A DNA stretch of 64,000 nt from Lactobacillus sp. Sy-1 (lineage in GTDB: Bacteria; Bacillota; Bacilli; Lactobacillales; Lactobacillaceae): contig NZ_JACCIU010000001.1 of assembly GCF_019303535.1 (NCBI RefSeq), positions 930,001-994,000 of the forward strand. The letters run 5' to 3'. The first letter of the stretch is position 1; each line of letters opens with the position of its first letter. The notes beneath the pieces were generated by a model. The model saw only the letters and a list, made by a program, of their open reading frames with translations. It did not search any database and was not told where the DNA came from. Positions 8,686 through 27,740 of the stretch are shown here, piece after piece. The translations under genes and the position numbers were made by a program.

Positions 8686-9660
8686 ATGAAGTTTATAATT
8701 AATATTTTACCGAACCAATTATTAGATGAACCCAATTTAAGTAGTTTTGTGAATAACATAACTAGCCAATACCATTCCAGTGAACTTCAAATTATAATTA
8801 AGCAAACTAGTCAGTTGCAGACGGGCTTATTTGAATATATTGACCGCCATGAGCTGCCAATCACGGTAATTGATTCACTCACGGATGTCACACTAGCTGA
8901 TTCCGGAGATACTTACTGGTTAAATCTACACGTTGACGATGCTCTACTTCCCAATGCGATAATGCAATGGGAAAACACGTTAACCAATCATGCCACGGAC
9001 TTATTAATGCTAAATTATGTTAATAATGACCAACGAATTTCAGATCAACTCGACCCCATTTTTGAAAATTTAGGCGAGGTCAAGGAAACCACGATTCGTC
9101 ATATTTTTGAAGTGGATCCAAGGGAATCATTATTTGACCTACCTTTATCAAAAAAACTTGATTTGTTACTAGGACTCCAAAGTTACTACTTAAATGACCG
9201 GAATTATCGTTACCGGACGTTCTTTAATAACGTTGACCTAACTGGTCGAAACGTTTTATACCGGGTTAATTCTGAGCGCTTACACAGTGATAAGAACTAC
9301 CTAGCAAAGTTGCTCTACGATTTAATTGATAATGATGATTTTGTCCGATTGAACATGCCAACCATGGTCCTTAGCGCTAATTCGACTGCCGAACAGGTAA
9401 AGCAAGGTTTGTTGTTGATTCAAAACGGCGCCTTCATTTTCGATGAAAAAATTAAAAATTACTACTTAAGTGCATTAGCGAACCGTTTAGCAACTATATA
9501 TGAATCAGTTCATGCGGATGATCATAGTGAGCCAGATCGAAATCATTGGCTTAAGCTGTTGAACGATGCTGTTAGTGATTTACCAGCAGAAAATCAAGTC
9601 CAACTAAAGGCTAGGAAAGCTAAACGGGGCGTTTTAAACTCCGTTAAACAAATATTTTAG
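8686..9660 (+). CDS. Degenerate GT-A glycosyltransferase-like protein, cell-wall cluster
   Basis: 324 residues, no recognised name. It opens MKFIINILPNQ, and the segment GDTYWLNLHVDDALLPNAI (about residues 84-102) lines up with GDYVVFVDADDFLLKDAF of the next gene's GT2 domain. A later stretch ERLHSDKNYLAKLLYDLI matches ELYSDIEFMMGVLNF of that neighbour. This reads as a full-length paralogue of the GT2 half in which the DxD metal site has decayed (HVDD for DADD). There is no signal peptide or membrane segment; the C-terminus is basic. It is cotranscribed with the fusion gene 15 bp downstream. The role is unknown; a non-catalytic partner or an altered transferase is possible. The paralogy is my by-eye alignment. 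Confidence 0.7.
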   Translation: MKFIINILPNQLLDEPNLSSFVNNITSQYHSSELQIIIKQTSQLQTGLFEYIDRHELPITVIDSLTDVTLADSGDTYWLNLHVDDALLPNAIMQWENTLTNHATDLLMLNYVNNDQRISDQLDPIFENLGEVKETTIRHIFEVDPRESLFDLPLSKKLDLLLGLQSYYLNDRNYRYRTFFNNVDLTGRNVLYRVNSERLHSDKNYLAKLLYDLIDNDDFVRLNMPTMVLSANSTAEQVKQGLLLIQNGAFIFDEKIKNYYLSALANRLATIYESVHADDHSEPDRNHWLKLLNDAVSDLPAENQVQLKARKAKRGVLNSVKQIF

Positions 9661-9675
9661 GGGGGAAATGAAATT

Positions 9676-11964
9676 ATGAAATTTAGTATCATTACACCTT
9701 GTAAGGCTGAGGATTTAGATCGACTAGTTGAGTTAAAAGCTAATTTAGAATCCCAATCCTTTACTAAATTTGAATGGATTATTGCATGTAACGACTTTGA
9801 TAACCGCTTTCAAGAGGGGAAATTCCCATTACAGATTGTCTCATACGCACCGCAAACAATTGGGGCAGCTAGAAACGCTGCTTTGGACGCTGCAATTGGT
9901 GATTACGTTGTTTTCGTTGATGCGGACGACTTTCTATTAAAGGATGCCTTCAAACGCTTGAACCACATGACCCCTCGGAATGATGATACCATTATTGGTT
10001 TGAACCACTATAAAACCTATGAAACCCAAGAAGCTTTTCTGAAGGACCTTAAGATCAACCATCGTGAAAAAGACGTTCTTCCTGATTGGGGCGGTCGTAA
10101 GAAACGGAAACCAAGAACCAAAAGTTTAAACTTAACTCCCGCTGACTTAAAGCACCTGAATTTAAACAAACGTGCTGCCCACTGGATTACCAATAAATAC
10201 AATATTTATTCAAAGGAAAATCATTACAATCAACTGGGTGCACAGTTAGTAGTGGCTGGGAAGGCAATTAAGCGTCAGTTTCTACTGGATCACCACCTCC
10301 GCTTTAATGCTAATAATGAGTTATATTCTGACATTGAGTTTATGATGGGGGTCTTAAACTTCAGTAAGCGGTTGGTATTAGTTAATAATTACCAATACAT
10401 TTTGGTCTATCATAACGATCCAATTAACGATCCCTCCAATGCGCAGTTAGCTCGTGATGACCGTTGGCAATTAATGGTCAAATCATGGATTGACGGTTAC
10501 CAACAACTTACGAATCCTGAATTTAAGCTGGCGTTTTCAGAATACACGGTTCGAAGATTGAACCGGACTCTGTATAAGGCTGTTTTAGATGAACGAGATT
10601 CAATGGGGGATGTTGATCAAACGCTCCAGTTAGTTAGTGATTACCTTAACTTAATCGATCAACAAGCTTTAAAGAGCGTTAACATATTAAGTCGCCGGAT
10701 CATTAATTCGCTAATTGATCGAAACTACGGACTAGCTAAGAAATTGATCGTATCATTGGTGTTCGGTCGAAACGCCCACCGACTCCTAAAACGCAGGGGA
10801 CGGGGAATCACCAAATTGCTCTACCAAAACGTTTTTACTAAAATGCCAGTTAAATCGAACGTTATTTTTTACGAATCATTTCTGGGTCGGAATTATTCTG
10901 ATAACCCTAAGTACATCTATGAGTATATTCAAAAGCACTATCCTGGAAAGTATGAACACGTTTGGAGTGCATCCGATCCCCAAGTTCGTGAATCATTAGC
11001 AGGTCAAGCTAACACCACCGTCGTGAAGCGGTTCGGATTTAAATACATGTACTATTTAGCAACTTCTAAATACCAGGTATTTAACCTTCGCCAACCCCGC
11101 TGGTTCGTTAAACGCCCCGGGACTAAACTATTATCGACTTGGCATGGAACTCCACTAAAGCGGTTAGTGTTTGACATTGATAACGTTGTGAATGCGACCC
11201 CAATGTACAAACGGAACTTCTACGAACAATCCCGTCAATGGGATTATTTAATTGCGCCGAACCAATTTTCAGCGGATGTATTTAACCATGCATTTATGTA
11301 TCCTAAGGATAAGATGATTGATTCTGGGTACCCACGGAACGATATTTTAAATGCTCCTGATCGCGACCAGCGGGCGGTTGAAATTAAAAAACGGCTGGGG
11401 ATTCCATTAGATAAAAAGGTAATCCTATACGCACCAACCTGGCGGGATGACGAACGGGCTAGTGGAAATGAATATAAGTTCCAATTAAAGTTGAATGTTG
11501 CAAAGCTTCGGGAAAACTTCGGGGACGATTATGTAATGATTTTACGGACCCACTACTTCATTACCGATCGAATTGATACTTCTACTTTCGGCGACTTTGT
11601 TTTTAATGAATCTAACTATCAAGATGTTTCCGAACTATACTTAGTTTCTGATATTTTGATTACCGATTATTCGAGTGTCTTCTTTGATTACTCAATTTTA
11701 AAGCGGCCAATTCTATACTTTGTATATGATTATGATAACTATGCTAAGGTCCTGCATGGCTTTTATTTGGATATGCAAAAGGATTTACCAGGCCCACTGC
11801 TTAAAACGAACGATGAAATTGTCGATGCAATTAAGAATATCGACACGATTAAGGCTAAGTATGCGGAACGCTACCAGGAATTCGACCGTCGCTTTGATGC
11901 ATGGGAAAATGGAAATGCATCCGAAAAAGTTGTGAATGTATTGTTGAACGATTCTGATAAATAA
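9676..11964 (+). CDS. Two-domain teichoic acid enzyme: GT2 glycosyltransferase fused to CDP-glycerol glycerophosphotransferase
   Basis: 762 residues. Residues 1-110 form a GT2 domain (FSIITPCKAED; GAARNAALDAAIGDYVVF; metal-binding VDADD at about 81-85), followed by helical GT2-type elements to about 370. Residues about 390-755 form a TagF/TarF-like glycerophosphotransferase: [10 protein letters not shown] (His near 490), [22 protein letters not shown] (His near 626), [15 protein letters not shown]. Such enzymes transfer glycerol-phosphate from CDP-glycerol to wall teichoic acid primers on the cytoplasmic membrane face. The fused GT2 unit suggests it both glycosylates and extends, or makes a mixed polymer; substrates cannot be read from sequence. 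It follows its degenerate GT2 paralogue in the same operon. Confidence 0.88.
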   Translation: MKFSIITPCKAEDLDRLVELKANLESQSFTKFEWIIACNDFDNRFQEGKFPLQIVSYAPQTIGAARNAALDAAIGDYVVFVDADDFLLKDAFKRLNHMTPRNDDTIIGLNHYKTYETQEAFLKDLKINHREKDVLPDWGGRKKRKPRTKSLNLTPADLKHLNLNKRAAHWITNKYNIYSKENHYNQLGAQLVVAGKAIKRQFLLDHHLRFNANNELYSDIEFMMGVLNFSKRLVLVNNYQYILVYHNDPINDPSNAQLARDDRWQLMVKSWIDGYQQLTNPEFKLAFSEYTVRRLNRTLYKAVLDERDSMGDVDQTLQLVSDYLNLIDQQALKSVNILSRRIINSLIDRNYGLAKKLIVSLVFGRNAHRLLKRRGRGITKLLYQNVFTKMPVKSNVIFYESFLGRNYSDNPKYIYEYIQKHYPGKYEHVWSASDPQVRESLAGQANTTVVKRFGFKYMYYLATSKYQVFNLRQPRWFVKRPGTKLLSTWHGTPLKRLVFDIDNVVNATPMYKRNFYEQSRQWDYLIAPNQFSADVFNHAFMYPKDKMIDSGYPRNDILNAPDRDQRAVEIKKRLGIPLDKKVILYAPTWRDDERASGNEYKFQLKLNVAKLRENFGDDYVMILRTHYFITDRIDTSTFGDFVFNESNYQDVSELYLVSDILITDYSSVFFDYSILKRPILYFVYDYDNYAKVLHGFYLDMQKDLPGPLLKTNDEIVDAIKNIDTIKAKYAERYQEFDRRFDAWENGNASEKVVNVLLNDSDK

Positions 11965-12157: not shown

Positions 12158-12916
12158 ATGGCTTCTGGACGTTCTACTCGGACGATTTCAATGACTAGCG
12201 CAATTGTGTACTTCGTTATCTCATTGATCATTAATTCAGCAGGAAACGTTTTGACCTTGGTATCAAGTGCTAAGGTTAGTCCATCGTTTTTAGGTTCAGC
12301 TTACTGGACCGCTGCTGAAAGTAATTTAGGAAAGGCCCTCTTGGGTCCTGATAACCCAACTGCTTTATTCTGGGCATTCTTTGGATTAGGTTTGATTATT
12401 ACTTTCTTAAACATGGTATTAGTGGGAAAGTGGAGTTGGAACCGGTTGATTGGAAACATTTGTTTCTTGGGACCTTTCTCACTCTTGATTCAATTATTCT
12501 CAAACATCTTTACTAAGGTGTTCCCAGTTGCTCATGGGTTAGGGATGACGATTTTCTACATCTTCCTTAACTTCTTGGGGGTAGCATTCATCGGACTTGC
12601 AATTTCAATTTACCAACGGGTTAACATCGCATTGCATCCCGCTGATGATTTAATGCAAATCCTTCGTTTCAAGTTCTGTAACGGTAGTGCTACTAAGGCG
12701 ATGTGGTTATCTTACATTCCACCTACCATTATGGCATTGATTGCCGCATTAATTACGCCAGGACCATTAATGATCAAGTTTGCTAACTTTGGTCTCGGAA
12801 CTGTCTTTGCATTCTTATTCCAAGGAAGTATTACTGGAATCTCAGATAAAAAGGTATTTCCATCACTTAAGCACCAAGCAATCGATGTTGGAACTGTCGG
12901 TGAATCAGAAGATTAG
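12158..12916 (+). CDS. Integral membrane protein, YczE/YyaS/YitT-like
   Basis: 252 residues with about six hydrophobic segments (for example IVYFVISLIINSAGNVLTLV, LFWAFFGLGLIITFLNMVLV, TIFYIFLNFLGVAFIGLAIS). The half-motif LVGKWSWNRLIGNICFLG and the six-helix layout recall the YczE/YitT family of uncharacterised membrane proteins common in lactobacilli. No transport residues or ATPase partner are visible, so no substrate is proposed. It has its own promoter, a long leader with an inverted repeat, and a terminator shared with the convergent LacI-family gene. The start is ATG 12158 behind AGGTG. Confidence 0.6.
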   Translation: MASGRSTRTISMTSAIVYFVISLIINSAGNVLTLVSSAKVSPSFLGSAYWTAAESNLGKALLGPDNPTALFWAFFGLGLIITFLNMVLVGKWSWNRLIGNICFLGPFSLLIQLFSNIFTKVFPVAHGLGMTIFYIFLNFLGVAFIGLAISIYQRVNIALHPADDLMQILRFKFCNGSATKAMWLSYIPPTIMALIAALITPGPLMIKFANFGLGTVFAFLFQGSITGISDKKVFPSLKHQAIDVGTVGESED

Positions 12917-24522: not shown

Positions 24523-25677
24523 GTGAAGGTATTGTATTTATGGTTGATTAGGATGATTTCGTTATGTCTTTATTTTAAGCAAAAAAATAATGTCGTCTAC
24601 ATAATGAGTTTTGATAACAACCTTCGCTTGATCAAGCGGATGGCATCAGAACTGCCTAGTGGTCAATCATTAATTGTGCTGTATGAACCTGATACGGAAG
24701 CGGGTGCGACCGATTTAGAGGCGTTTGGGATCACTACCTATCAGTTCGAAGAGGGGTTGTCCTTCGCCTTCAAGTTGTTGCCAATCATCATGTCGTCACG
24801 ACTGGTCTTTTGTGATAACTACTACCCATTCTTAGGGGGCTTAGTCCACTCTAGTGGGCTGAAGATTATCCAATTATGGCATGCGAATGGGGCGATTAAA
24901 AAATTTGGTTGGGCTGATCCAATGACAGCGAAGCGAAGTAAATCAGACCAGCACCGCTTTCAGTCCGTGTATAACCAATTTGATGAATATGTTGTCGCAT
25001 CCAAAACGATGGGCCGGGTATTTGAAAATAGTTACCACGTTCCCTTTGAACGGATGCAAATGCTGGGTTATCCGCGTTCGGATCGGTTCTTTAAAGCGGA
25101 TTGGCAAACCCATGCGCAAAGTCGGGTGTACGTAGTGGCACCTGAGTTAAAAGATAAACGGGTGATTCTGTACGCGCCGACCTACCGGGATGGGCTGGCT
25201 TTTACCCCTCCGGCTGATTTACTAGAGGCGATTACGGTTGATCCAGCTGCGGAAGTAGTGGTCAAGCTCCATCCATTGTTAAAAAATAAGGAAGCTGAAT
25301 TGGCCGCTGAAAATCTTAAGTCTGGTAGTAATCGGATTCACTTTTATAACCAGCTATCCACTTCCGACTTACTATCGGTTACTAATACTTTGATTACAGA
25401 CTACTCATCAGTTGCGTTTGATTACAGCTTGTTACCTAATGCCCACTCGATGCTATTCTTTATGTTTGACTTAGCAGAGTACCAAAAAAATCCGGGAATT
25501 CAGTCCGACTTATTGAACTGGTTACCATCAAAACCAATTTTAACATCGGCTGAATTAGCAGCTGCAATTAAGCAAAATGCTAAAACCGATTTTACTAATT
25601 TTAATCAGCATTGGAATACTTATAATGATGGCCAGGCTACTAAGCGGGTCATTGATAGATATATTGAAAATAGATAA
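24523..25677 (+). CDS. TagB-like CDP-glycerol glycerophosphotransferase
   Basis: 384 residues, one glycerophosphotransferase domain: IQLWHANGAIKKFGW (His near 120), [50 protein letters not shown]. The use of WHANGAIKKF rather than WHGTPLKKL is typical of TagB/TarB primases, which add the first glycerol-phosphate to the ManNAc-GlcNAc-PP-undecaprenol primer. A short hydrophobic N-terminus (YLWLIRMISLCLYF) may bind the membrane. The start is a weak GTG at 24523 with the nearest good SD about 17 bases upstream, serving a 4-codon ORF. It begins the cluster with tarG and a TagF-like gene. Confidence 0.86.
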   Translation: MKVLYLWLIRMISLCLYFKQKNNVVYIMSFDNNLRLIKRMASELPSGQSLIVLYEPDTEAGATDLEAFGITTYQFEEGLSFAFKLLPIIMSSRLVFCDNYYPFLGGLVHSSGLKIIQLWHANGAIKKFGWADPMTAKRSKSDQHRFQSVYNQFDEYVVASKTMGRVFENSYHVPFERMQMLGYPRSDRFFKADWQTHAQSRVYVVAPELKDKRVILYAPTYRDGLAFTPPADLLEAITVDPAAEVVVKLHPLLKNKEAELAAENLKSGSNRIHFYNQLSTSDLLSVTNTLITDYSSVAFDYSLLPNAHSMLFFMFDLAEYQKNPGIQSDLLNWLPSKPILTSAELAAAIKQNAKTDFTNFNQHWNTYNDGQATKRVIDRYIENR

Positions 25678-25692
25678 GGAAGTGTCAACGAC

Positions 25693-26502
25693 TTGAAAGA
25701 AGTTGGAACGTTAATTAAAGAGCAATTAGGCAATCTGGGAATTATGTTTAGAATTTCTAGGTACCAAGATAAATCGGATTATCAAAGCCATTATCTAGGG
25801 CTAGTTTGGGAATACCTCTACCCTCTAATTCAAATCGCCATTTATTGGATGGTGTTTGGGATTGGACTTAAGAAGGGGGCTTCCGAAGGTGTTGATTACC
25901 TTTCTTGGATGGTGATCGGAATTACTCCCTGGTTCTTTATGAACAGTGTTACCTTGGATTCATCGAAGAGTATTTACCAACAGGTTGGAATGGTTTCCAA
26001 GATGAAGTTTCCGGTTAGTATCTTGCCCTCCATTAAGATCATAAGTAACCTCAGTTCATTTTGGACGATGCTGGTATTTTCAATTGTCATCGGATTTTTC
26101 AAGGGTGGAATTACCCCTAATATCTATTGGTTCCAGTGGATTTACTACTTCTTTGCAATGATCATGTGGCTAGTGGCCTTTGGAATCTTTAATTCGACCG
26201 TCTCGATTTTGGTCCGGGATTACCGCATTTTACTACAATCAGTAATGAGAATGCTCTTCTACATGTCTGGAGTGCTATTTAACTTTCAGACCGATGCATT
26301 TCCGCCAGCATTCGCACGGATCTTACAACTAAATCCATTTTTCTACATTGTTAATGGGTTTAGAGAATCGATGTTTTCAGAAGCCTGGTTTTGGCAACAC
26401 CCAACCCTAACGATTATCTTCTGGCTATTCGTTGCATTCTTCTTGTTGGTTGGGGCCCACTTACATTACAAGTTTAGATCCCACTTCGTTGACTTAATTT
26501 AA
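25693..26502 (+). CDS. tarG: Teichoic acid ABC exporter permease TarG/TagG
   Basis: 269 residues with six hydrophobic segments of the ABC-2 type: GLVWEYLYPLIQIAIYWMVF, then four further helices, ending IIFWLFVAFFLLVGAHLHYK. The order and motifs (YLSWMVIGITPWFFMNS; LNPFFYIVNGFRES) match TagG/TarG, the membrane half of the wall teichoic acid flippase. It starts with TTG 25693 behind AAGGAAGTG. The ATPase TarH, usually the next gene, is not present anywhere in this window, so the partner must be encoded elsewhere. Confidence 0.9.
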   Translation: MKEVGTLIKEQLGNLGIMFRISRYQDKSDYQSHYLGLVWEYLYPLIQIAIYWMVFGIGLKKGASEGVDYLSWMVIGITPWFFMNSVTLDSSKSIYQQVGMVSKMKFPVSILPSIKIISNLSSFWTMLVFSIVIGFFKGGITPNIYWFQWIYYFFAMIMWLVAFGIFNSTVSILVRDYRILLQSVMRMLFYMSGVLFNFQTDAFPPAFARILQLNPFFYIVNGFRESMFSEAWFWQHPTLTIIFWLFVAFFLLVGAHLHYKFRSHFVDLI

Positions 26503-26516
26503 TTTGGAGGAATCAA

Positions 26517-27740
26517 ATGCTTAATTCATTCATTAATAAGATGATTAAAATGGTTAAGATTGTGATTCGTTATGGACTCATCGTTATTAACGATGGGTTT
26601 ATTTGTTTACCGGTAAAAAAAGGGGTAGTCATTTTTGATAGCTTTAATGGCCGTGACATTAATGATAATCCAGCTGCGATTTATCGGCAGCTAGTTCGGG
26701 ATGATCCTAAATTTGCCCAAACCACATTTTTTGCGGTCAAGCCGGATAAATATAACGAATTACATGCACAGTACCCAGAAATTAAACTCCTAAAAAGGTT
26801 TATGCCCAGTTGGGTCTGGTACATGGCGCGGGCTGAGTTTTGGGTGTTTAACTCACGGATGCCGGCTTGGTGGCGCAAGAATCGTAGGACTACCTATATT
26901 CAGACCTGGCATGGGACGCCCCTTAAGAAATTAGGGGTCGATATTGATAACGTTGAGATGCCTGGGACTGATACGACTAAGTACCACCGCCGCTTTGTTG
27001 CCGAAACTAGGCGTTGGGACTACTTGATTGCCCCAAACCAGTACTCAAAGGTGATTTTTAAACGGGCCTTTCAATTTCATAACCAGTTCTTGGATATTGG
27101 TTATCCTAGAAATGACGTTTTGTATTCTGATAATAATAAAATAGCGATTCAAAGCTTGAAAAGAGAACTGCTCGGCAATTCCACTGCTCATGTAATTACG
27201 TATGCTCCGACTTGGCGGGATGATCAATACATTACCAGGGGTCAGTACAAATTTGAGTTACCGTTCGATTTAAAACGCTTTTTTGAGGTAGTGGCTGATG
27301 ATACGATCTTAATTATTCGTCCCCACTATTTGATTAAGGACCACATTAACATCACCGGGTTTGAAGACCGAGTTCGGATTTTAGCGGATGAAGACATCAG
27401 CTCGATTTATTTAATTACCGATTTATTAATCACTGATTACTCTTCAGTAATGTTTGACTTTGCAAACTTAAATCGACCGATGCTATTTTATAGTTATGAT
27501 TTGGAGCACTATCGTGATCAACTCCGGGGCTTTTATTTTAACTACCAAACTGAATTACCCGGGCCACTAACTACTAACCAGGATCAATTCTTTGATCAGT
27601 TAGCTCGTTATACAGTTGATGGCACTTTTAAAAATGAATATGATAAAATGAAACTGTTTAGAGAAAAATTTTGCAGCTGGGAATCAGCAGATTCTTCAGA
27701 ACAAGTTGTCAAAATAATAAGGGGCGAAGTTTATGAATGA
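26517..27740 (+). CDS. TagF/TarF-like CDP-glycerol glycerophosphotransferase
   Basis: 407 residues, single glycerophosphotransferase domain with the complete signature: [19 protein letters not shown] (His near 132), [63 protein letters not shown]. It closely resembles the C-terminal half of the 9676-11964 fusion protein but lacks a GT2 domain. It likely extends the poly(glycerol-phosphate) chain at the membrane. It is 14 bp after tarG, behind GGAGGAA, and its stop overlaps the nfo start (ATGAATGA), giving translational coupling. Confidence 0.88.

Follow-up and report, generated by a model that had tools for sequence, protein, structure and literature searches.

The window, by which we mean the whole 64,000-nt stretch of DNA analysed here, contains two genes on the same strand, 15 nt apart, whose products we refer to as P1 and P2 (Table 1). 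P2 matches two Pfam domains, GT2 at residues 4-123 (E = 4e-8) and Glyphos_transf at residues 385-757 (E = 1.9e-113). The profile of its family matches the S. epidermidis TagF polymerase (E = 1.6e-137), with separate domain matches for the N-terminal stretch (E = 6.6e-5) and for the rest of the protein (E = 2.2e-131), and two P2 histidines, H490 and H626, are invariant in the 18 family members and align to the WHGTP and MHY motifs of TagF. Judged from these matches, P2 has the two-domain architecture of TagF-type (GT-A/TagF-like) proteins. An earlier note on this DNA, made from the sequence, had described P2 as a "fusion homologue" of P1; the two domains, a GT2 part and a second half, are there, but their arrangement is already known from TagF and from capsule polymerases, and the fusion is not an unusual one.

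Table 1. Genes and sequence features of the P1-P2 locus, with positions in the window
Feature	Position	Strand	Basis
P1, pseudo-glycosyltransferase, 324 aa; predicted GT-A fold and C-terminal helices, without DxD metal motif	8686..9660	+	ORF, homology, fold, motif counts
P2, two-domain GT-A/TagF-like polymerase, 762 aa	9676..11964	+	Pfam and family profile against TagF
P2 GT-A (GT2) half, paralogue of P1	9676..10755	+	Pfam and profile alignment
P2 Glyphos_transf (TagF) half with WHGTP and RTHYF histidines	10828..11946	+	Pfam, family alignment, TagF alignment
P1 H82-V83-D84-D85, at the place of P2 D82-x-D84-D85	8929..8940	+	Alignment
P2 D82-A83-D84-D85 metal motif	9919..9930	+	D82, D84 and D85 in 26/26 partners
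P2 W138-G139-G140, proposed P1-linked motif	10087..10095	+	WGG counts, paired and unpaired polymerases
P2 S218-D219, presumed catalytic base	10327..10332	+	D219 in 25/26 partners; role by analogy with TarS D178
P1 stop codon (TAG) merging into a G-rich stretch that resembles a Shine-Dalgarno site, ahead of the P2 start (TAGGGGGG...ATG)	9658..9675	+	Sequence

The likeness to S. epidermidis TagF (PDB 3l7i) extends to both halves, each of which is matched by the P2 family profile, and to the metal motif, where DADD is found; we know of no P1-like partner of TagF. The same domain order, an N-terminal GT-A domain with DxD followed by a TagF-like domain with histidines, is described for the GT-A/TagF-like capsule polymerases Cps1B, CslB, Cps12B and Ccs2 (PMC5974469). 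These are Gram-negative capsule enzymes, however, and the excerpted text of that paper mentions no pseudo-glycosyltransferase partner; it also states that little is known about the biosynthesis of type II wall teichoic acid.

The genome of the window, estimated to be 98% complete, encodes three Glyphos_transf proteins, namely P2, a 384-aa protein (24523-25677) and a 407-aa protein (26517-27740), as well as one CDP-glycerol synthase of the TagD family. The genes of the 384-aa and 407-aa proteins flank an ABC-2 transporter gene, and this region (24523-27740) is probably a wall teichoic acid block. Because a GT2 match is present in P2 but in neither of the other two Glyphos_transf proteins, P2 is a good candidate for a main-chain polymerase here. 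Downstream of P2, at 12158-12916, lies a gene for a hydrophobic protein of 252 aa that matches nothing in Pfam; it is also found in the genome of the sister species.

P1 is a diverged relative of the glycosyltransferase half of P2

P1 has no Pfam match, and its lone NCBIfam match (APH_6_Steno, E = 0.094) is at chance level and was rejected as an identity. The Pfam GT2 profile matched none of 22 P1 family members at E values of up to 1, and the weak Pfam matches scattered over the family, none of them common to more than two of the 22 members, were taken as chance. Searching solved structures by sequence with P1 returned no credible relative (best E = 0.47), and the pairwise BLASTP comparison of P1 with P2 was not significant (E = 1.7).

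Comparison at the level of profiles gave a different picture. A profile of 22 P1 homologues (20 of which were used after the hhalign filter) and a profile of 18 fusions of the P2 family produced one collinear alignment of 288 columns (hhalign; probability 97.1, E = 6.3e-11). Against the GT halves alone the P1 profile aligned over 309 columns with a score of 88.4, as compared with 14.4-15.7 for five column-shuffled P1 profiles and 17.4 for a reversed profile. The P1 profile scored 22.2 against a set of 26 generic GT2 proteins, against which the GT half scored 195.4. Among the ORFs of 79 loci, a P1 HMM matched two partner proteins (E = 1.6e-5 and 2.7e-5), and a GT HMM matched one P1 (E = 1.1e-4). 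By these profile comparisons, P1 is closest, among the things compared, to the neighbouring half-protein, helical extension included, and the alignments establish common ancestry: P1 has diverged as a paralogue of the GT-A half at the N terminus of P2. The alignment along most of the product with the GT2 half of the next gene, which the earlier note had made by eye, is therefore borne out by profile homology, though not by pairwise BLASTP.

The predicted GT-A fold of P1 lacks the metal motif of its partner

An AlphaFold2 model of P1, built from 17 sequences, reached a mean pLDDT of 81.1 and a pTM of 0.74; a single model out of the five scored poorly (57.9). Of the 996 Foldseek matches of this model, 68 had E <= 0.001; 5hea came first (E = 2.5e-7), followed by TarP, RmlT and TarS, with query TM-scores of about 0.45-0.52. 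In VIA-align, 419 of 997 chains scored Z >= 8. Three glycosyltransferases of wall teichoic acid, TarP, TarS and RmlT, ranked with the best matches in structure (Z 13.6-14.0; 250-267 residues; rmsd 4.6-5.7 Å), with TarP at Z 14.0 (254 aligned residues, 4.8 Å) and TarS at Z 14.0 (250 residues, 4.6 Å); 5hea was tied with these three, and a further RmlT entry scored Z 12.8. The fold predicted by the model is GT-A, so that a fold of another kind, which the earlier note had named as refuting its reading, was not what we found. TarP, TarS and RmlT differ from P1 in being active enzymes, whereas P1 is without the metal motif.

The state of the active site was followed in 26 P1 proteins (the window's and those of 25 loci) and in their 26 partners. 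At P1 position 82, where every partner has an aspartate, none of the 26 proteins does (Arg in 21, His in two, and Lys, Gln and Cys in one each); aspartate is found at position 84 in two of 26 and at position 85 in 24 of 26. The replacement of VDADD by HVDD that had been read from the window's P1 is correct and falls on residues 82-85 in both proteins. In the partners, R66 (25/26) and N67 (26/26) are likewise conserved, and the GAARN-type segment of P2 is mostly an alignment gap in P1.

The downstream SD motif, by contrast, had been described as kept, and this holds literally for the window's P1, in which S201-D202 aligns with P2 S218-D219, but not for the family: Ser-Asp is found there in the window's P1 only, among the 26, while position 202 is Pro in 22 and Asp in two, and the sister species has Thr-His. 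Position 200, two residues earlier, is Asp in 11 of 26, in a part where the alignment is uncertain. No acidic residue is conserved in P1 at the place of the partner's presumed catalytic base, a role assigned by analogy with TarS, whose DXD motif and proposed base D178 are discussed in the literature. As far as the alignment allows, what became of the catalytic base in P1 is harder to tell than what became of the metal motif. Conservation in the P1 family is strong elsewhere, around LNLRxTDxLLPGALxQW, and ten residues are invariant in 22 sequences. P1 is best called a pseudo-glycosyltransferase.

Could P1 nevertheless have kept glycosyltransferase activity, at an unconventional site that needs no metal, and attach a sugar to the polymer of P2? 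Its fold is intact, several of its nearest structures decorate teichoic acids, D85 is largely kept, and a basic residue occupies position 82 in 24 of 26 proteins. Basic residues stand in for the metal in some transferases. Such a replacement is stated, in the excerpted text of PMC5974469, for GT-B proteins. We nevertheless regard this explanation as quite unlikely, given that P1 has lost the metal motif and conserves no acidic residue at the place of the base, while the partner keeps both, that the GAARN-type segment is largely gapped, and that none of the 22 family members matches GT2.

A separate observation concerns the polymerase of Philodulcilactobacillus (L030:2880-5183), which keeps DVDD and has Ser at the presumed catalytic base (LHSSVKLM); because of this serine, the GT half of that polymerase may itself be impaired.

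P1 lies next to the polymerase in every genome in which it was found

The P1 profile matched 27 of 397 Lactobacillaceae genomes, in six of 40 genera. The profile of the GT half (E <= 1e-20) matched 29 genomes in seven genera, including all 27 with P1; the remaining two are Apilactobacillus genomes (G024 and G277; loci L093 and L095), which have the polymerase without P1. Outside Lactobacillaceae no P1 was found, the matches in samples of the order (6/345 genomes, all six of this family) and of the class (1/299, the window's own) coming from this family, with whose sample both overlap. The P1 of L. brevis had no match among 72,556 plasmid records. A match in genome G376 (single-sequence search, E = 1.6e-4, an ORF of about 1,100 aa in L053) was set aside as unrelated: L053 has no partner gene, and the match was lost with the profile.

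In all 25 fetched contexts P1 was directly upstream of its partner on the same strand, with a gap of 1-45 nt in 24 of the 25; in the exception (L051) the called partner start overlaps P1, and the gap would be about 14 nt if the partner started at MKFS. The window provides the 26th adjacent pair. In the 27th genome (G369) P1 is apparently frameshifted, through a true frameshift or a sequencing error, and stands in the same place before the partner; in the other 26 genomes P1 has an open frame of at least 279 aa. Two partners are themselves broken: in G378 (L032:6297-7502) the partner is without the TagF half and P1 is intact beside the GT half, and in Lactiplantibacillus plajomi (G061; L044:2296-4626, L096:5001-7331) the partner is split between its halves, with P1 open beside the GT half. 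Genomes with P1 and without the partner, which according to the earlier note would refute its reading, were not found among the 27, G378 keeping only the GT half and G061 a split gene. Whether the pair is always adjacent, a question raised in the same note, has a one-sided answer: P1 always stands beside its partner (27/27), but the polymerase occurs alone in the two Apilactobacillus genomes.

Genes further out vary between genera, whereas the adjacency of P1 and its partner is constant. Judged by eye from the ORF starts, the pair follows LepA, or LepA and the permease, in the genus of the window as well as in G034 and Philodulcilactobacillus, and the P1-less polymerase of Apilactobacillus ozensis is preceded in the same way; in Levilactobacillus, Lactiplantibacillus and Lentilactobacillus other ORFs precede the pair.

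A WGG motif is found in most P1-paired polymerases

Two Apilactobacillus genomes keep the polymerase without P1, and P1 is therefore not universally needed. In a tree of 29 polymerases, which included 23 of 26 paired ones (three were dropped as near-copy, truncated or split), the Apilactobacillus proteins fall inside the paired ones, in a set of seven rows with support 95/95; the join within this set has support 83/77, and warnings were raised of long branches and of an unusual letter make-up in Apilactobacillus. Given this position inside the paired polymerases, P1 was probably lost in Apilactobacillus.

The GT half of the Apilactobacillus polymerases is about 25 residues shorter and reads MPNWAF in place of the LPxWGG or MPKWGG of paired polymerases. 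WGG occurs in 25 of the 27 polymerases paired with P1 and in none of six unpaired two-domain ones examined, these being a second copy in G034, both Apilactobacillus proteins and three distant two-domain relatives. The two exceptions among the paired polymerases, G339 and G369, both read LPKGTG; P1 is intact in the former and broken in the latter. The second G034 polymerase (L029:8091-10394) stands in tandem, lacks WGG and has no P1 of its own, and the segment that follows WGG in paired polymerases is present in it as well. This contrast, which comes from few independent lineages, is a hint, not proof, that the WGG-marked part of P2 contacts P1. Modelled together from seven sequences, P1 and the P2 GT half gave a pLDDT of 55 and a pTM of 0.48, with low confidence in the WGG part as well; at this quality the model speaks neither for nor against an interface. 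It is possible that P1 functions in another complex.

P1 is under purifying selection and diverges together with the GT half

For all 12 of the pairs with a P1 dS under 1.6, dN/dS of P1 was 0.047-0.123 (Nei-Gojobori); in the same pairs it was 0.022-0.097 for the GT half and 0.007-0.043 for the TagF half (0.043 coming from the truncated partner). P1 is under purifying selection, in agreement with the earlier proposal that selection maintains a full-length degenerate copy beside an apparently active polymerase of the teichoic acid type.

These values also bear on the idea that P1 is a duplicate in decay, soon to be lost and meanwhile hitch-hiking in the operon. Its absence from Apilactobacillus inside the paired clade and its apparent frameshift (or sequencing error) in G369 would fit such decay, as would its being the fastest-evolving part (median distance 0.64 vs 0.55 and 0.20). 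Yet a gene in decay would sit poorly with low dN/dS in 12 of 12 pairs, with the ten invariant residues and with long open frames in 26 of 27 genomes, and we consider this explanation highly improbable.

Pairwise distances, calculated from 24 of the 26 sequences (the truncated L032 and the split L044 were dropped) and uncorrected for shared ancestry, correlated at 0.975 between P1 and the GT half, 0.940 between P1 and the TagF half and 0.904 between the two halves, and, with the TagF half taken into account, the partial correlation between P1 and the GT half was 0.86. Another explanation to be weighed here is a role for P1 in regulation or in sensing polymer length, in which it would bind the teichoic acid chain through its converted, basic donor pocket and affect P2 only in an indirect way. 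The basic residue (Arg, His or Lys) that 24 of 26 proteins have in place of the first metal aspartate and the strong conservation around LNLRxTDxLLPGALxQW are what such a protein might show, whereas the co-divergence with the GT half, together with the changed GT half where P1 is absent, favours direct contact, albeit without proof; we judge indirect action to be unlikely.

At the junction of the two genes, a TAG stop codon followed at once by GAGG or GGGG was found in nine of 16 named loci and was absent in the other seven. Translation of P1 and P2 is likely coupled, as far as this sequence pattern can indicate.

Proposed role of P1

Taken together, we consider it probable that P1 is a pseudo-glycosyltransferase subunit of a teichoic acid polymerase, one that would form a complex with P2 and work like CHPF beside CHSY3. 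The scaffold or regulatory role suggested in the earlier note would be plausible for it. For this subunit role speak the homology with its controls, the predicted fold, the loss of the metal aspartate, the adjacency, the dN/dS values, the distance correlations, the overlap of stop codon and Shine-Dalgarno-like stretch, and the Apilactobacillus case; on the other side are the low confidence of the joint model, the existence of P1-less Apilactobacillus, the broken partners of G378 and G061, the absence of WGG in G339 and the absence of the stop/Shine-Dalgarno overlap in seven of 16 loci.

According to this model, which goes beyond the demonstrated ancestry, predicted fold, metal-motif loss, adjacency and selection, P1 would be made in step with P2 through translational coupling and would bind the GT half of P2, possibly near WGG, as a pseudo-homodimer partner. 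It would take the place of one protomer in what was once a GT-A dimer, where it would hold the GT half and perhaps the chain as it grows, and would itself use no sugar nucleotide. Its contribution might be to stabilise the polymerase or to keep the growing, anionic chain in position between the two active sites, GT and TagF. A more specific version, possible though doubtful, is that of a heteromeric teichoic acid polymerase in which the former metal and donor site of P1 has become a basic groove that binds the phosphate chain, P1 docks on a P2 segment marked by WGG, and Apilactobacillus escaped this dependence by losing both P1 and WGG.

The nearest parallel to the proposed subunit is the human chondroitin sulfate polymerase CHSY3-CHPF, in which an active subunit with GT-A domains is joined by a homologous partner without DxD (PMC12748766), as P2 would be by P1; P1 would then work beside P2 as CHPF does beside CHSY3. 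A chain of this complex (9q8z_B) ranked 50 among the listed structural matches of P1 (Z 10.6). The human system differs in having GT31 and GT7 domains, both of which are present in the inactive partner, whereas the duplication seen here is limited to the GT-A half, and a polymer of the teichoic acid type is expected. Two glycosyltransferase proteins also act in complex in the protein O-GlcNAc transferase GtfA-GtfB, with GtfB called a co-activator of GtfA (PMC5156392, PMC6291802); GtfA, however, is described as a GT-B enzyme with a protein acceptor. Among the titles and abstract openings of the best-listed open-access entries, we found no description of an inactive glycosyltransferase subunit of a teichoic acid polymerase, and PMC3511166 supplied general background on wall teichoic acid.

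If the proposed role is right, some of the teichoic acid polymerases in lactic acid bacteria consist of two subunits, one of them a pseudoenzyme that has no family in Pfam or NCBIfam. They would offer a bacterial, genetically tractable case of the pairing of active and inactive glycosyltransferases reported for chondroitin synthesis, and would bear on how the chain is handed over between the two active sites of two-domain TagF-like polymerases.

A further gene was observed beside the polymerase itself. In several genera a giant ORF follows directly downstream (L085:7335-11086, L091:7348-11059, L093:5806-9556 and L095:7255-11023, all of which are truncated at the end of the locus); in the whole-genome search the corresponding open frames are 1,682-1,695 aa long and contain two Glyphos_transf matches in one frame, and their product is, by these matches, a possible double-TagF polymerase.
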